Origin: Brevibacillus composti
Lineage (GTDB): Bacteria > Bacillota > Bacilli > Brevibacillales > Brevibacillaceae
Length of the DNA: 64,000 nt
NCBI RefSeq assembly: GCF_016406105.1
Contig: NZ_CP066308.1
Location: 3,025,501-3,089,500, forward strand
Direction of reading: 5' to 3'
Shown here: in pieces, positions 3,503-57,875 of the stretch
Numbering within the stretch: position 1 is the stretch's first letter
Layout of the letters: every line of letters starts with the position of its first letter
Translations under genes and position numbers: made by a program
Notes under the pieces: generated by a model
Seen by the model: only the letters and a program-made list of their open reading frames with translations
What the model was told of the DNA's origin: nothing
The model's database searches: none

Positions 3503-3615
3503 GTGTGCACCTCCTATACTCAGACTCGCCTGTGCAGGTGCGCCGCGAGCGGCGTCTTTCGCTACCTGTTTCGTGCGGTTACAGTATGCTGTGAGGCATA
3601 GCTGTATGACAACCA
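3503..3615 (-). ncRNA. Putative L21 leader (rplU 5'-UTR)
   Basis: The minus-strand transcript before rplU contains a strong hairpin CGCCG-CTCG-CGGCG (3554-3541) and a CCTG/CAGG dyad (3538-3529), then the conserved-looking stretch GCGAGTCTGAGTAT ahead of the ribosome-binding site. Placement and the tail sequence fit, from memory, the Rfam L21 leader family, in which excess L21 represses its own operon. A covariance search with that model would settle it. Confidence 0.6.
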
Positions 3616-25704: not shown

Positions 25705-25988
25705 TAAAAAAACCTTTCATCTCAAAGGACGAAAGGATTGTTTCGCGGTACCACCTTTGTTAACGCAGCAGCATGACGAATCCATGCACGGCGCTCACTT
25801 TGACAAGATAACGGTTGTAAACCGGCCGCGGCTACAGCATCAGCTCTCGCCGTGACAACTCCCGGGCGACCTTCGATCAGACCTGTCCTTAGAGAATCTC
25901 GCAGCTTACCGATTCTCCCTCTCTGCCAAGGCGTTCTGCTCTACTCTTCCCGATCATCGCTTGTACTGGTTCTATTCTTGGTCAATCG
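25705..25988 (-). promoter_or_regulatory. T-box riboswitch of valS
   Basis: The minus-strand leader contains the T-box core GGTGGTACCGCG (25755-25744) and then a terminator stem CCTTTCGTC/GATGAAAGG (25736-25728 with 25721-25713) plus a T run. UGGU in the core pairs with an ACCA tRNA end, agreeing with the A discriminator of tRNA-Val. Uncharged tRNA-Val would stabilise the antiterminator and allow valS transcription. I could not fix the specifier codon by eye; a Val codon is expected in stem I. Confidence 0.93.
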
Positions 25989-26034: not shown

Positions 26035-26346
26035 TCAGGCCTGCTTCAGGGAGATGCCCAAAGCCTCCGCAAAACCGAGGACGTGCAGGATGTCCAAAAT
26101 TTCCTCACGTACATTAATAATGTCAATTTTTTTCCCCAAGGTGAGCAAATCTTTGGTCGTAAAAAACAAATGGCCGATACCGGAAGAGTCCACGAACGTG
26201 ACATCTTGGAAATCTACGGTGACGGCGCCGTTTCTCTCTCCGTATTCACGCAGAAGATTGCCGACCCGTTCACCGACAGCCATGTCCAATTCACCGGCAA
26301 AATACAATATCGCTTGTCCGTTCTCTTCAATTGCCCGGAAGTCCAT
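26035..26346 (-). CDS. STAS-domain anti-sigma factor antagonist
   Basis: A 103-residue SpoIIAA/RsbV-type protein. The phosphorylation site is in VDSSGIGHLFF (the first or second Ser), and the fold signature AGELDMAVGERV is typical. Unphosphorylated STAS proteins bind an anti-sigma or kinase partner and release its target. ATG 26346 has GAGAGGAG 7 bases upstream. It is last in a cassette after a HATPase kinase and a PP2C phosphatase, its expected modifiers. No sigma factor is adjacent, so the output is unknown. Confidence 0.9.
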   Translation of the reverse strand: MDFRAIEENGQAILYFAGELDMAVGERVGNLLREYGERNGAVTVDFQDVTFVDSSGIGHLFFTTKDLLTLGKKIDIINVREEILDILHVLGFAEALGISLKQA

Positions 26347-26439
26347 GTTCAAACTCCTCTCTCGCTTTCTTTCTCTCTTCGCCAACAATTCGTCCTCGTT
26401 CTATTAAATTCCCGCTTTGTCCGCCTTCCAAACATCCGC

Positions 26440-27669
26440 TCAGGGAATGATCGCCTCCAAAACCAGCTTGGTTCCCACCGAAGAGGTGCCGACCAGCAGA
26501 CGATAGCAGAACTGAAGCATGACATGAAAGCCTACGCCGAGGGAATGCTTGCTCGAATACCCTTGCCGCAGCGTCGCATTCGGAAGCTCCTCCAGGAGGA
26601 TCCCCTGTCCCCGGTCGTGGACGATGACGCGCAACAAACGCTCCTCCCTGCATATGTAGATGGTGACGGTTCCCCCCGATCCGTGCTTCAGGGTATTGGT
26701 CGCCGCTTCATTGACAGCGACGAGAAATTGCAGGCTCCGTTTCTCCGGCATGGCCAGCGGCGCCATGATTTTCTTGCACTCCGTCCGCAGCGAAGCCAGA
26801 TCCTCGGCCGACGTAATCGTAATGCTCGCTACTTGCTTGCCTCTCTCCGTCAGCTCATGCAGTTCCTGATCGGTCAGCAGGATGAGCTTGTCCTGCGTGA
26901 CGGCACCCATCACCTGCTTGTACAGCTCCCACTCCTTCTGTTGCCGCTTTCGCTCCGCGGCGATCGCTTCCGTCACATCGATCAGGGCTAGGCCGCAGGT
27001 CTGATCCGGCAAAGGCGACGCATACAATTCAAACATCCGCTTGCCGTCAGCCGATACCAGCTGCTCGCGAACGGCCGATCCGCTCCAGACCGCTTCCTCA
27101 GCCACCCGCTTCAGATCTTCTGTCATCTTTTCCTCGATCATCTGCCCGCCGATGGGCCGAACTACGCCGTTTTCCATTACATACAGGTAGATCGACTGCA
27201 CCTGGCGCAAGATCGAGAGCTTTTGCAGCTCCTCTTTAATCATGCGGTGCCGCTCATCCTCGGGCTGCCTCAGCTCCAGCGGCCATTCATCCGTAAGCGG
27301 ATCCCGCCTCCGATGCCACTGGAGAAATTCGTCCAGCAGCAGCCGCTCCAGGACTTCTTCCCGCCGCAGCACCTTTTCGATATCCAGTACATAGTAGGGC
27401 ACATCACGAATTCCTTGAAAAGCGCTGCCCACAATCCGAAAGTCTGCTGCCAGTTCTACTTCTACCTGCGCGGACAGCGTTTCCTGCTTGCAATACAAAC
27501 CAATCGCCGTCCGGCTGATCGCCCGCAACTCTGCAAGGGCCGTCTGTCCCGATTCGAGCGTGACCCGCACTTTTCGCGCGGGCACCACCTTTTTTGCCGC
27601 TCCCGCTCGAAGTGCGTGAAGACAGTTATGACATGCAGGATTCGTCGGGCACTCCTCACACAACATCAT
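26440..27669 (-). CDS. HATPase serine-kinase-like protein with Cys-rich, PilZ-like and PAS-like N-terminus
   Basis: A 409-residue protein whose C-terminus (about 275-409) is a GHKL ATPase like RsbW/SpoIIAB: N-box NEAATNTLKHG, G1 DRGQGI, G2 SLGVGFHVM. It has no histidine-kinase dimerisation His, so Ser/Thr phosphorylation of the STAS partner is the likely role. N-terminal features: CxxC-x5-CxxC (Cys 4, 7, 13, 16), a PilZ-like beta region (about 28-105) and a PAS-like region (about 150-240, ending LIDVTEAIAAERKRQ). It overlaps the phosphatase gene by 14 bases. Large sensory N-termini are unusual for this kinase family. The domain names other than HATPase are tentative. Confidence 0.8.
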   Translation of the reverse strand: MMLCEECPTNPACHNCLHALRAGAAKKVVPARKVRVTLESGQTALAELRAISRTAIGLYCKQETLSAQVEVELAADFRIVGSAFQGIRDVPYYVLDIEKVLRREEVLERLLLDEFLQWHRRRDPLTDEWPLELRQPEDERHRMIKEELQKLSILRQVQSIYLYVMENGVVRPIGGQMIEEKMTEDLKRVAEEAVWSGSAVREQLVSADGKRMFELYASPLPDQTCGLALIDVTEAIAAERKRQQKEWELYKQVMGAVTQDKLILLTDQELHELTERGKQVASITITSAEDLASLRTECKKIMAPLAMPEKRSLQFLVAVNEAATNTLKHGSGGTVTIYICREERLLRVIVHDRGQGILLEELPNATLRQGYSSKHSLGVGFHVMLQFCYRLLVGTSSVGTKLVLEAIIP

Positions 27670-29773
27670 CGATTACAGCCTCCTGTTCTGTACCTGATTG
27701 AAATCGCAGGATCAACAGGGAAATATCATCCGTCTGCAGCGATTCGCTCGTTTGCGACTTTACGTAATTTTCCACGATGGCGATGCTGTCCTCATCTTCT
27801 GACAACAGGCCTTCGTGCCTTAACCGAGTAAACCCCTCCAGCCATTGATTGACACAGCGCTGCAGGTCATTTCGGCTCAAATCCAGCAGCCCGTCCGTAT
27901 ACGCCAAGAGAATGCCCTCTTCTTTCAGCGGGATGGTCTCTCTCTCGTAAAAGCTGTCGGGAGAAAGGCCCAGCCCAAGTCCGCCGCAGCAGGGCAGGAG
28001 CGCGGCTCCTGAGGCGGTCAGATATAGCGGCTGGGGATGCCCGGCCCGGCTGATCAGCAGTGCATGCTCGTGGCTGTCGTAGATGGCGACCAGCATCGTG
28101 ATGAAAGAACGGGTTTTGATCAAATCCTCGTACAGCAGCGAATTGAGCCGCTGCAAGATCAATTCGGGCTCCCAGCAAGTCTGCGTCACGGCCCGAACCG
28201 CACTGCGGATTCCTGTCGTCATCAGACTGGCCGGCAAGCCATGGCCGGATACGTCCGCGATGACAAAGCAGGTGCGCCGCTCATCCAGCTTGAGATAGTC
28301 GATATAATCGCCGCCCACATAGGTATCGGGCAGGAAAACGGCCTTGGCTTCCAGCTTCGGAAGCAGCAGCCGGCCATCGGGCATCAACATTCTTTGTATT
28401 TTCTGAGCCAATTCCATCTCCTGCTCCATTAACCGAAGCTCCAAGAGCTGGTTCTCTTGCAGGCACCTCAGGATCAAGCCGCGTACATTGACGATCAGGA
28501 GCTGGTAAAAAGACTGTTCCAAGAGCAGTTCTTCTTCATTCTCGGTCACGCATTTTGCTTGCATCACCACGTATCGGGGAACGAGCGGCGTGTCCTGCTC
28601 TTCATCAACGGCTATCCTCTCCGTAACGTCTCGCTGGATGCCGGAATGATCCTCATCTCCGCGGATGATCTCATAATATACGACTCCATCCTGAGATTCC
28701 AGCGAAAGACGCAGGTAAACCAGGTTGTCCATTTTCGCAAACCAGACATCCACCAATTCTTCGATGACTTGCTGCAAATTCTCGTAGCTGACTTCCCGCA
28801 AGCTCTGCTCATTGCTGGCCAATAGCAGCTTCTCGTAGGTCTGCTTGAGGCTCAGCATTTTGGAGAGCTGATAGTTTTTTCCCTGGATTTGTTCCAACTG
28901 CTCGGAAAATTTTTTCTCCAAGCTGCCCGCCGTCTTCAGCGTCTGCCGGATCAGCGATTGATTTCTGCTTTTCGTCAGGCAGATGCGGACGGTCGTAATG
29001 ATGGCCGCAATTCCGAACCCGATCATATACACCCAGGATTCCCGCCAGGTCAGCATCGCGATCAGCTGGATGATCAGGAGCACCTGCATCGCATTGGAGT
29101 CCTGGATACTGAAATGAAGCTGCTCGTGCAGGTAACTGTGCTCGTCCATGACGACAGATTTAGATCTGTTGCGCGGAAAGCGGTAATGAGCAAAGACCAG
29201 GATGCCGATGGAAAGAACCCCGAAGATCATAACCACGGGTTCGGGAAGAAGCTGGTGGAGCATCACCGTCACAATCAATAGCAACGTCGCCAGCAACAGC
29301 TCTGCCTTCCGCTCTGTCTGCTTGCCGTTCAGCCGGGCATTGGCCATGTACACGGTAACTAACGGAAACACCAGCAATAATCCACTGAATAGATGCATCA
29401 AAATGAAAGTGGAGCCCGTCTCCGCGGGAGAGAAGACGATGGTAAGCACCGTCGCGCCGTAGATCGCCAGAAAGGCAACAGAATCCAGAACCGTTTTCCA
29501 CTGGTCGTAGTAGATATGAGGGGCAAGTGGATAGACATGCAGAGACATCAGAAAAAAGAGGTAAAACAGGCTGTCCAGCGGCAGGCTGATGATTCTCACG
29601 ACGGGATCCGGATGATTGATCATCAGATGGGACAGTCCCCACAAAATCAGGCCAACCCCCTGCAAGAAGGAGATGTCGTACCATTTTTTGATCGACACCA
29701 GCTGCCGGGAGAAGAGCACGATCGTCACACCCGCTGCGATGCTGCATACGTATAAAATCGCCTGCCATATCAT
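27656..29773 (-). CDS. Membrane-anchored PP2C phosphatase (SpoIIE/RsbU type)
   Basis: A 705-residue protein. Residues 1 to about 265 hold roughly eight hydrophobic helices, then a coiled coil (about 275-320), a GAF-like region (about 320-440), a linker helix (QEMELAQKIQRMLMP) and a C-terminal SpoIIE-type PP2C domain (about 480-690). Metal-binding motifs are present: VGGDYIDY, IADVSGHGLPASLM, YTDGLLDL and TDDISLL. It should dephosphorylate the STAS protein encoded two genes downstream in response to a membrane or GAF signal. ATG 29773 has AAGGTG 7 bases upstream. First gene of the cassette. Confidence 0.88.
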   Translation of the reverse strand: MIWQAILYVCSIAAGVTIVLFSRQLVSIKKWYDISFLQGVGLILWGLSHLMINHPDPVVRIISLPLDSLFYLFFLMSLHVYPLAPHIYYDQWKTVLDSVAFLAIYGATVLTIVFSPAETGSTFILMHLFSGLLLVFPLVTVYMANARLNGKQTERKAELLLATLLLIVTVMLHQLLPEPVVMIFGVLSIGILVFAHYRFPRNRSKSVVMDEHSYLHEQLHFSIQDSNAMQVLLIIQLIAMLTWRESWVYMIGFGIAAIITTVRICLTKSRNQSLIRQTLKTAGSLEKKFSEQLEQIQGKNYQLSKMLSLKQTYEKLLLASNEQSLREVSYENLQQVIEELVDVWFAKMDNLVYLRLSLESQDGVVYYEIIRGDEDHSGIQRDVTERIAVDEEQDTPLVPRYVVMQAKCVTENEEELLLEQSFYQLLIVNVRGLILRCLQENQLLELRLMEQEMELAQKIQRMLMPDGRLLLPKLEAKAVFLPDTYVGGDYIDYLKLDERRTCFVIADVSGHGLPASLMTTGIRSAVRAVTQTCWEPELILQRLNSLLYEDLIKTRSFITMLVAIYDSHEHALLISRAGHPQPLYLTASGAALLPCCGGLGLGLSPDSFYERETIPLKEEGILLAYTDGLLDLSRNDLQRCVNQWLEGFTRLRHEGLLSEDEDSIAIVENYVKSQTSESLQTDDISLLILRFQSGTEQEAVIDDVV

Positions 29774-29867
29774 AGAGAATCACCTTTTTGCCTTCGATTG
29801 TCGTTCCTGTACTGCCCATGTTGTTGATTCTGTACCCGGATCCAAGCTGGCGCAAACTATTTTTCTT

Positions 29868-30210: not shown

Positions 30211-31206
30211 TTAAAACGCTTGCTGCACCCAGCGGTTCAAGCGCAACAGCCGGTCCATATCCTTTTCCAGCCTTTTGACGGCGTACAGCTCACTCCACTC
30301 GTTCTTCCCGCCGTAATAGATCGCGATGTCTCTCATGATGCGCTCCGGATACGTGAGGAAAGCGACGAGCAGATTGGTCTCCTCGGAGCGAAGAGGGAAT
30401 ATCTCCATGTAGCGACGGAAGAGCTGACTGGCTCCCGCTTCATCTCCGGCGAGGTAAAAATACGTCCGGTAAAACAGGGCCAAATCTCTGGTCGGGGTAT
30501 CGAAGACGGCCCGGTCAAAATTGAGCAAGCGGGCTTTTCCATGCCGATCTGTGAGGACGTGAGCCGGTTGGGGGGAGCCGTGGATGAGGGACAGCCGAAA
30601 ATGGGCATACGTCCGATGTCTCTCACGCCATTCCTGCAGTTGTCTGATGGCCGTCTGGGCCGTCTCCCTGACAAAGGCTTGATTGGCCAAAAACACAATA
30701 TCAAACGGAGACGGATAGAGCCGCTCGCCCGCGATCTCAGCAGCCTTATCCATCTGCAGGAGGAACCCGTCCCACCGCTTGAGCATGGTGTCGATCAAAG
30801 GCTCCACCTGTCTGGGGTCGTCAAATCGATAGTTTTGTGTCAGATGATGAAGCTCTGCCAAGCGTTCGACCGCAGGCTGCGCCCAGGCGAGAGGCTGATA
30901 CTGCCGCCGTGTCGTGCCTGGATGCCATTCTGTCAGATAATACGTGTCTTTCCCGTACTTTACATAGGGTTCATCGTATTTGGTATAAAAAAAGGGAACG
31001 GCCCCCTCCCATCCTCTCCGCTCCAATTGGCGCAGCACCCCGCTGACCGCATGCAGGCGCTGGGGATCCGTCCGCGTCCTTTTGCAGGCAAAATCGCCGT
31101 ATGGAGTGACCGCTCTGTACACATTGGGGGACTTTACCATCTCTATCTTCTGGGCAAACATGTCATATTCCTGAAACAGCGGAAAGATATCGTCAAAGCG
31201 CTTCAT
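30211..31206 (-). CDS. ysxE: CotS-family spore coat kinase-like protein (YsxE-like)
   Basis: A 331-residue member of the CotS/YsxE aminoglycoside-phosphotransferase-like family, expected in the spore coat. The catalytic loop reads LIHGSPQPAHVL, with Ser where active members have Asp after HG; the later NFDRAVFD keeps a possible metal-binding Asp. It starts at ATG 31206, overlapping the stop of the upstream paralogue as ATGA. With spoVID two genes upstream the order matches B. subtilis. It may be a pseudokinase with a structural role. Confidence 0.8.
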   Translation of the reverse strand: MKRFDDIFPLFQEYDMFAQKIEMVKSPNVYRAVTPYGDFACKRTRTDPQRLHAVSGVLRQLERRGWEGAVPFFYTKYDEPYVKYGKDTYYLTEWHPGTTRRQYQPLAWAQPAVERLAELHHLTQNYRFDDPRQVEPLIDTMLKRWDGFLLQMDKAAEIAGERLYPSPFDIVFLANQAFVRETAQTAIRQLQEWRERHRTYAHFRLSLIHGSPQPAHVLTDRHGKARLLNFDRAVFDTPTRDLALFYRTYFYLAGDEAGASQLFRRYMEIFPLRSEETNLLVAFLTYPERIMRDIAIYYGGKNEWSELYAVKRLEKDMDRLLRLNRWVQQAF

Positions 31207-44151: not shown

Positions 44152-46097
44152 GTGCCCAGCAAGCCGTTAATTGCTAGTTGGTGAAAGTCCAACCGAGGTA
44201 AGAGCCAAGTCGCCTCGTAGCTGACAGGCAACTGGTGGAGTGATCCTAAGGTTGAAGCCCTGTGACAAAGTAACCCGAAAGGGTGCAAGCAAATCAGCAG
44301 ACCGTAACATAAAGTGAATCCTGCCCCTCGTTAAGAAAGACCATTGTAAGATGGACAAGGAGGAGCCGAGCCTGGGGGAAGTGGGCGAAGGCCACGGAAG
44401 GTGTGTAGAACTTGGATCGCAGCACTCAAGAACCTCTCGGGGTAAGGGGAACGGTATGCTGAGAAAGTAAGGAACGGAACTGGGGAGACCCTACTTTGCA
44501 CACTCCGTCGGAGTGTAAAGCGGAAACCTATAACCGTAAGGGAAGTGGTGGACGGCAGAGAGGGAGTCGGAGGGGCTCATAGTACCAGAGAAGTGGAGAC
44601 AACAAAACTCCATGGAGGAAAGGAGCCCTGCTTTGTTCACGGGTTGAAAGGAGGTAAGAGTGAGTGAATGCAAGTAAACTTGCTAACTACACCGATGCAA
44701 AAGCTCGACAACTTTGGACAACCCTATATCTTTGTGCCAAGGAAAATCCAAAACGGCGATTTCATGCTCTGTATGACAAGGTGTATCGTCCTGACATCCT
44801 CGCCGAAGCATGGCGCAGAGTGCGTGCCAACAAAGGAAGCGGCGGAGTGGACGGACAGACAATCGAAAGAATTGTACATGAATACGGAGAGAGTAAATTC
44901 CTCAATGAAATCTACCTCGACCTAAAGAGAAAACGGTACCATCCGGCACCAGTTCGACGCACGTACATTCCAAAAGCGGATGGGAAGCAAAGACCGCTTG
45001 GCATCCCGACGATACGAGATCGAGTTGTCCAAATGGCAACCAAAATGGTCATTGAGCCAATTTTCGAGGCGGACTTTAAAGATTGCTCATATGGATTCCG
45101 ACCGAAACGAAATGCCCACCAGGCGATTGCACAAATCAGAAAAGCGAGCAAACAGGCATATTGGGTAGTTGATGTAGACATCAAGGGGTACTTTGACAAC
45201 ATCAATCAGGAGAAGCTGATGAAACTGGTTGAGCAAAGGATTTCGGACCGCAGAGTACTAAAACTGATTCGAAAATGGCTGCAAGCAGGTGTCATGGAAG
45301 GTGTACAGTTCCATGAAACGGATTGGGGAACTCCGCAAGGAGGAGTAATTTCGCCGCTGCTTGCGAACATTTACCTCAACTACATGGATACAATCTGGGA
45401 GAAACAATTTTCTCATCTTGGCAAATTAGTTCGATACGCCGATGATTTCGTGGTCATGTGCAAGACGAAAAAGGATGCCTTGGAAAGCATTCAGGTTATA
45501 AAGGCCATTATGAGCAAACTTGACCTGACTCTTAGCAAGGAAAAGTCTCGATTGATCAATATCTGGGACAACACCGCAGGCTTTGACTTCCTCGGTTTTC
45601 ATCATCGAAAATTTCCCGTTCTCATTAAAGGTGGAAAAAGGATATATGTCATGTCACATATTCCAAGCAAGAAAGCAATGAAAGAAATGAGACGGAAAAT
45701 TAAGATGTACACCGAACCGCGCAGCAAGTTGTACTGGCCGCTGCATGAGGTGGTACAAGGGCTTAATCGAAAGCTTAAGGGATTCAAGAACTACTATTCA
45801 ATTTCAACTATAGCAGCAAGATGGTTAAACAGAATTGATTGGTATGTAATAGAAAGGCTGACGCTATTCGTTAACAAGAAAAGGAATGTGCGAAACAAGC
45901 ATTCCAGGGTCGGGGAGGTAATGAAAGCCACACGGGGATCATTGGTGAAACTTGCCGGAGAGGACTACCGAATGCCAAAGAAAGAAGAGCATCGGAAAGC
46001 CGTATGAGGGAAAACCTCACGTACGGTTTGATGAGGGGGAGCTGAAATGAGTAAGGCGACCATATGGTCGCCCAAAAGTTTCAGTTCTCTACTCTAC
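44152..46097 (+). mobile_element. Group II intron with its own reverse transcriptase
   Basis: The 5' end is placed at GTGCC (44152), 10 bases past the terminator T run. About 510 bases of structured noncoding RNA precede the RT gene. Domain V is clear at about 45997-46030 (AGCCGTATGAGG-GAAA-ACCTCACGTACGGTTT). Domain VI follows: GAGGGGGAGCTGAAA pairs with TTTCAGTTCTCTACTC leaving A46091 bulged as branch point, with a GGCGACC-ATAT-GGTCGCC arm. The intron would end at AC 46097, 7 bases counted from the branch A. Insertion after a terminator stem is typical of IIC introns, though the RT looks more like other classes; I leave the class open. Boundaries are inferred. Confidence 0.85.
44664..46007 (+). 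CDS. ltrA: Group II intron reverse transcriptase/maturase
   Basis: A 447-residue intron-encoded protein. RT blocks are complete: [58 protein letters not shown], the catalytic VRYADDFVV and [10 protein letters not shown]. The maturase X domain follows (about 330-400, [15 protein letters not shown]). There is no HNH endonuclease domain, so mobility would rely on target sites at replication forks or hairpins. GTG 44664 has GGAGG 9 bases upstream. The stop codon lies inside domain V, so the coding region runs past the usual domain IV limits. Confidence 0.95.
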
Positions 46098-56933: not shown

Positions 56934-57875
56934 TTGAAAAAGCAGTGGATGGCAGATACAACGCTGTTTTTGATCGCTTTTATTTGGGGTGCTACGTTCC
57001 TCGTCGTGCAACAGGCGATCAATGAACTTCCGCCGAACGCCTTTAATGCCGTTCGCTTTTCCATCGCCGCACTGTTCCTGCTTGCGATCCAACTGCTGTT
57101 TTATCGCCAGCAATGGCGCGAGTGGAGCGCCCCTCTGCTGAAGGCAGGCTGTCTGATTGGCTTCTGGCTTTGTCTGGGGTACGGGCTGCAGACGGTCGGC
57201 CTGATGTATACCACCCCTTCCAAAGCGGGGTTTATCACCGGTCTGTCCGTGGTGCTCGTGCCGCTCTTTTCGTTTCTGATCCTGCGGGATCGGGTAAAGC
57301 CCTCGGCCATTGTCGGGGTCATCCTGGCCGCTGTCGGCCTGTACCTGCTCACGCTGAACCAGACGCTGGGGTTCAACATCGGAGATATCATGGTATTTGG
57401 CTGCGCGATTTGCTTTGCGATGCAAATCGTCATTACCGGCAAATACTCGCCGATTTTTCCCGCCCTGCCGCTGGCGATCGTGCAGCTGGGGACGGTAGCC
57501 GTGATGAGCTGGGCCTATGCGATCCTGTTTGAAGACTGGCGGCGTGCCCTGGATCCGCAGGTCCTGCTCATCCCGGAGGTCGCCCGCGGTCTCGTGATCA
57601 CCTCCATTTTTGCCACAGCGCTGGCGTTCCTGGCCCAGACGGCCCTGCAAAAGCAGACGACGACGACCCGCGTCGCCTTAATCTTTGCGCTGGAGCCCGT
57701 CTTTGCCGCCGTCACCTCGTACCTCTGGATTCATGAAATCTTGACGGGGCGGCAGATATTCGGCGGATTCCTGATCTTCTTCGGGATGATTATGGCGGAG
57801 ATGCCGATTGCCGAGTGGGTGAAGCTGTGGATGGCGAAGAAGCAGGCGCAGCGGGAACGAAAAGATTCGACGTAA
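56934..57875 (+). CDS. EamA/DMT family transporter
   Basis: A 313-residue protein with ten hydrophobic helices in two EamA repeats; start LIAFIWGATFLVVQQAINELPP and second-half signature TTTTRVALIFALEPVFAAVTSYLW. The start codon is TTG 56934 (TTGAAAAAG) behind a GGAGGGAGAG site. Substrate unknown. Followed by a tandem repeat and a shared terminator. Confidence 0.9.
   Translation: MKKQWMADTTLFLIAFIWGATFLVVQQAINELPPNAFNAVRFSIAALFLLAIQLLFYRQQWREWSAPLLKAGCLIGFWLCLGYGLQTVGLMYTTPSKAGFITGLSVVLVPLFSFLILRDRVKPSAIVGVILAAVGLYLLTLNQTLGFNIGDIMVFGCAICFAMQIVITGKYSPIFPALPLAIVQLGTVAVMSWAYAILFEDWRRALDPQVLLIPEVARGLVITSIFATALAFLAQTALQKQTTTTRVALIFALEPVFAAVTSYLWIHEILTGRQIFGGFLIFFGMIMAEMPIAEWVKLWMAKKQAQRERKDST

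Follow-up and report, generated by a model that had tools for sequence, protein, structure and literature searches.

A conserved phosphatase-kinase-STAS trio of Brevibacillus as a candidate partner-switching arm of the sigma-B regulon

We propose that three adjacent Brevibacillus genes, encoding a membrane PP2C phosphatase, a GHKL kinase and a STAS protein, rather probably form a partner-switching arm that is part of the sigma-B regulon and in turn acts as an input to sigma-B. The switch is conserved and ordinary in kind, its kinase is unusual, and its position in the circuit is new. We found no paper in the open-access PMC literature combining partner-switching with Brevibacillus, a genus much used in biotechnology.

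In the window (the whole stretch of 64,000 nucleotides analysed here), the trio consists of three minus-strand ORFs between ysxE and a T-box-led valS:

25722..25966, minus strand: T-box leader of valS, a neighbour outside the switch (RNA family match)
26035..26346, minus strand: candidate STAS phosphoprotein with the motif VDSSGI (PF01740, E 1.5e-11; alignment)
26409..26433, minus strand: second sigma-B-type site, GTTT-N16-GGGAA, between the kinase and STAS genes (pattern search)
26440..27669, minus strand: kinase with CX2CX5CX2C, PilZ-like barrel, PAS-like domain and GHKL domain (ORF, Pfam, alignment, fold matches)
27656..29773, minus strand: membrane PP2C phosphatase of SpoIIE type, with about eight predicted TM helices, a long helix, a GAF-like segment and the PP2C domain (ORF, Pfam, hydropathy, model)
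29833..29857, minus strand: sigma-B-type promoter site, GTTT-N16-GGGTA, upstream of the PP2C gene (pattern search)
30211..31206, minus strand: upstream syntenic neighbour that we take to be ysxE (ORF and synteny)

ORFs and domain matches agree with an earlier note on this DNA, which had described overlapping or closely spaced genes for a polytopic membrane PP2C, a GHKL kinase and a STAS protein (PP2C and kinase genes share 14 nt). The locus has no sigma or anti-sigma target next to it, and the next gene after the T-box leader is valS, both as stated there. The full phosphorylation switch that it had also claimed is complete by domain content, and would be one as far as sequence can tell.

The note had further held that loss of the three-gene order in related genomes would count against it. 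The order ysxE-PP2C-kinase-STAS-valS was kept in all 26 genus genomes (the window's and 25/25 others), and the longer order spoVID-cotS-ysxE-PP2C-kinase-STAS-valS-folC in 25 of the 25 other Brevibacillus genomes; thus, the arrangement is not due to chance. Across the order, the complete trio was present in 33 of 39 genomes, the window's included. In G032, only the ATPase domain of the kinase is left (contamination of this genome is listed as 7), and G037 has PP2C and STAS in place with no kinase between them and a full-length kinase relative, 31% identical, elsewhere. The trio genes were absent in four of the 39 genomes searched (G026, G028, G029 and G030). In G027 and G035, the order of the trio is kept and the flanking DNA differs. 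To our knowledge, the corresponding B. subtilis interval has no trio genes.

In the trio-less G030, a membrane-protein gene, yitT-like by reading, lies between ysxE and valS, and some other genera have a yitT-like gene (also by reading) between ysxE and the trio or valS (L126:9805-10599; L125:11325-12188). Elsewhere, the window holds a group II intron (44175-46097; Rfam matches to domains 1-4 and the intron 3' part) and a ribosomal protein L21 leader (3512-3590).

Regarding promoters, GTTT-N16-GGGTAC was first read by eye upstream of the PP2C gene. Both trio sites match the sigma-B promoter motif GTTT-N15/16-GGGWA, as given in an excerpt of the published source (PMC9847131). GTTT-N16-GGGWA precedes the PP2C gene in 26/26 genus genomes, where about 0.8 would be expected (chance of 3.2% per region, even allowing N14-18), and its second box ends 20-128 nt ahead of the start codon. 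GTTT-N15/16-GGGWA precedes the STAS gene in all 26 as well (24 with N16, two with N15; 0.135 genomes expected). Box positions hardly vary (top-base fraction 0.98-1.0), whereas spacer positions do (0.61-0.66). The control genes cotS, ysxE, valS and folC had no site in the 200 nt upstream (0/26 each), and the same scan found the rsbV site in 64 of 65 other Bacillales loci, 46 of them with N16. Among the nine trio-bearing genomes of other genera that were scanned, the first site occurs in five and the second in three; seven carry one or both, and G033 and G038 are without either. A third window site (57272-57296, plus strand) was dropped because it falls within a transporter-like ORF. Taking a sigma-B-type site at a conserved place as the mark of the sigma-B regulon, both genes carry it in 26/26 genomes, and the trio very probably belongs to this regulon, on promoter evidence that consists of sequence from related genomes.

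The window genome carries rsbT-rsbU-rsbV-rsbW-sigB away from the trio. Its RsbU retains the RsbU_N domain, and SQMHVSRLQR, which we take to be the -35 recognition helix, is identical in its SigB and that of B. spizizenii. Within the order, the 35 genomes (of 39) in which RsbT was found are precisely the ones with trio genes, and canonical SigB (62-100% identity) occurs in the same 35; the other four have neither RsbT nor trio, and no rsbT-V-W core. G026 has a SigB of 51% identity adjoining a PP2C gene, with no RsbT, RsbV or RsbW match within 7 kb around it, and G028, G029 and G030 have SigB relatives of only about 40%. Since the four form one clade in the valS tree, the co-loss of trio and RsbT counts as one event, and the co-occurrence is a suggestive link to sigma-B. 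The trio-less genomes retain a second module, RsbV2-RsbW2-SigB2 (seen in G026 and G028), so a SigB can do without the trio.

The earlier note had entitled the locus a cassette without a sigma factor and suggested a distant sigma factor as output. The first holds locally; genome-wide, however, the two promoter sites in 26/26 genomes and the RsbT co-occurrence make sigma-B the candidate, so that the title misleads, and for the same reasons an independent sigma-less cassette was dropped as first choice. The suggested output thereby gains a candidate, and we lean towards a feed into sigma-B. An orphan sigma factor of SigB/F/G type was sought in the window genome, and the SigB search returned SigB, SigF, SigG and more distant sigmas only. 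As a separate observation, L349, L350 and L351 carry another SigB-like sigma, about 40% identical and accompanied by RsbV- and RsbW-like genes of its own; it occurs in trio-less genomes too.

Sigma-B-type sites also occur before chemoreceptor (MCP) genes: 8 of 20 in G008, 3 of 21 in the window genome (one of the three inside a reading frame) and 1 of 16 in G028, with 0.18, 0.34 and 0.26 expected, respectively. One of 22 window-genome matches (L347) was left out because it had no start. A narrower first scan gave 8, 2 and 1; the opposite strand of these regions had no site. The G008 loci include L311, L312, L316 and L323. Genus-wide, GTTTGAA-N13-GGGAA had 48 matches (14 of them at the trio) vs. 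14 for the reversed pattern. Loci were assigned to 30 matches, and 20 of these loci are other than the trio; proteins scanned from ten of the 20 comprised five with an MCP signal domain, one MCP-like sensor with HAMP and four others. Some other matches to this strict pattern lie within genes.

Chemoreceptor genes use sigma-D in other bacteria. Another sigma factor could thus read the trio sites, the link to sigma-B being the coincidence of one lineage, as there was just one co-loss and some chemoreceptor genes bear the site. We regard this as improbable: the trio sites fit the sigma-B motif, also detected at rsbV by the same scan, and a sigma-D-like pattern, picked post hoc, matched 4/16 chemoreceptor upstream regions in G028 vs. 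0/21 in the window genome and 0/20 in G008, the two with canonical SigB. An earlier sigma-D-like pattern gave 0, 1 and 1 matches across the same three genomes.

At the protein level, the phosphatase has 705 aa (SpoIIE PF07228, E 3e-37). Hydropathy gives seven membrane segments, the predicted structure eight N-terminal helices ahead of the long helix, and the GAF-like segment was assigned by secondary structure. The acidic motifs of the PP2C domain are invariant (alignment A3), and its fold matches comprise RssB, an RsbU domain, RsbX, SpoIIE and a SiaA domain (6k4e). The membrane sensor is missing in one clade of nine. In the window genome, the PF07228 search retrieved RsbU, SpoIIE, the trio PP2C and a PrpC-like protein.

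The kinase (409 aa) has the GHKL serine kinase domain of a partner-switching module (HATPase_c_2, E 1.6e-9; RsbW/SpoIIAB fold, residues ~275-409), preceded by the Cys4 motif, the PilZ-like barrel (~23-106) and the PAS-like domain (~158-240). Solved relatives of the kinase domain by sequence are mainly SpoIIAB, and a SiaB domain (6kko) is among the structural matches. In the tree, it does not group with the anti-sigma kinases RsbW and SpoIIAB and sits with RsbT (99/98, under a long-branch warning). Canonical c-di-GMP residues of PilZ are RxxxR and D/NxSxxG; neither is kept in the kinase alignment (A1), which has R32 and S/C-R-T-x-x-G instead. The kinase profile found 57 proteins (7998 candidates scored), and the named organisms among them are all Brevibacillus bar one archaeal MAG label.

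For the STAS protein, a conserved ATG at 26346 marks the start (the ORF of the earlier note began at TTG 26388). It matches PF01740 and anti-sigma antagonists, and both serines of VDSSGI, S54 and S55, are invariant in the 19 aligned sequences, giving it a phosphorylatable serine. By tree and motif it is not a stressosome-type STAS: the tree separates it from RsbS/RsbR (100/99) and puts it near RsbV and SpoIIAA, on a long branch that calls for the same caution, and DSSG replaces DSF. Six STAS proteins were found in the window genome: SpoIIAA, RsbV, the trio STAS, a histidine kinase with STAS and two SulP-like transporters (the last three labelled by reading). Thus, the trio STAS is the sole spare free-standing STAS found there.

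The solved relatives of the kinase, together with ysxE and spoVID, which we take to be spore genes, would fit a trio that feeds sporulation, its STAS acting on SpoIIAB and sigma-F. This is very improbable, as the trio sites are of sigma-B type rather than sigma-F type, and trio-less genomes retain SigF and SpoIIAA.

SiaC, for its part, acts on the diguanylate cyclase SiaD. Sigma-B could likewise express the trio while its STAS switches an enzyme or a motility component rather than a sigma factor. The sites before chemoreceptor genes, the PilZ-like barrel, the SiaB and SiaA domains among the fold matches and the place of the kinase beside RsbT in the tree (given its long branches) are in line with this. 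We nevertheless find it rather unlikely, because the trio has no linked enzyme gene in neighbourhoods across the genus, its loss coincides with that of the rsbT-V-W core, and the canonical PilZ residues are not kept. An arm of sigma-B also has points against it: the altered or moved kinases of G032 and G037, a STAS that is not RsbS-like, and the site-less G033 and G038.

The neighbourhood of RsbT bears on the partner of the STAS protein. Among the matches listed, we compared the best 80 RsbT loci from named genomes: RsbS lies directly upstream of RsbT in 65 of 67 non-Brevibacillus loci and in 0 of 13 Brevibacillus loci, the latter including one titled Anoxybacillus sediminis PCH 117 (L360), a title that looks wrong. 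Pfam STAS detects RsbS readily (E 2e-18). With no RsbS beside RsbT and the six STAS proteins accounted for, RsbT is therefore without its usual partner. A second RsbT-like protein adjoins a histidine kinase with a STAS domain at L352:2510-4436; the window genome has such a kinase (L021), and its RsbT search (E<=1e-12) gave one RsbT only.

In the circuit that we infer, from the reading of the sites by sigma-B through phosphorylation and STAS partner to the sign of the feedback, sigma-B, whose gene follows rsbT-rsbU-rsbV-rsbW elsewhere in the genome, would transcribe PP2C, kinase and STAS from one promoter, and a second sigma-B promoter would drive the STAS gene alone. The kinase would phosphorylate STAS on a VDSSGI serine, and the PP2C, steered by its membrane or GAF-like parts, would take the phosphate off. 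Unphosphorylated STAS would then bind RsbW, as a second RsbV, or alternatively RsbT, replacing the missing RsbS; both partners are possible.

A further point against the arm is the sigB operon, whose own autoregulation is uncertain. Among 30 Brevibacillales sigB loci, the strict motif was found before rsbV in none, before rsbU in none and before rsbT in four; looser GTTT-N16-GGGAW precedes rsbT in nine and GTTT-N18-GGGATT in nine more, these overlapping the mazF terminator. In a bolder, tentative reading, Brevibacillus may have lost the stressosome (RsbS and RsbR) and replaced it with the trio, the feedback point moving from rsbV to the trio and sigma-B taking over some chemoreceptor genes. 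STAS, under its own sigma-B promoter, would hold RsbT or RsbW, and the Cys4-PilZ-PAS kinase and membrane phosphatase would supply metal or redox, nucleotide and membrane signals. If so, the general stress sigma factor of Brevibacillus runs with RsbT and without a stressosome, whose place is taken by a compact cassette in which each gene can be deleted singly. What controls RsbT without RsbS would become directly testable, in a natural case of a feedback loop shifted between STAS genes, from rsbV to the trio STAS.

Compared with known systems, a FapA-linked second partner-switching module (L111:1373-8852 and L113:1080-8305) has a GHKL kinase related to that of the trio along with PP2C and STAS genes. 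It differs in its place, in having two STAS genes, and in its HAMP and FapA/DUF342-like proteins, and its PP2C is soluble (several labels are by reading; the family search covered the L111 kinases). As for SpoIIE-SpoIIAB-SpoIIAA, the window genome has a separate set, and the trio kinase stands outside the RsbW/SpoIIAB tree group. SiaA-SiaB-SiaC (SiaD) of Pseudomonas shares a membrane PP2C, a kinase and a STAS-like protein, with structural matches to the SiaB (6kko) and SiaA (6k4e) domains; the trio, however, has no diguanylate cyclase gene alongside, and its STAS matches PF01740 and anti-sigma antagonists. Finally, the general stress module of Bacillus (RsbR-RsbS-RsbT-RsbU-RsbV-RsbW-SigB) differs from the trio, which stands at a locus of its own, contains no sigma gene, has a Cys4 motif, a PilZ-like barrel and a PAS-like domain in its kinase and a membrane sensor in its phosphatase, and belongs to a genus where RsbS and RsbR are missing beside RsbT. 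Both have the same three kinds of protein and a sigma-B-type promoter ahead of a STAS gene, at rsbV in Bacillus and at the trio STAS here.
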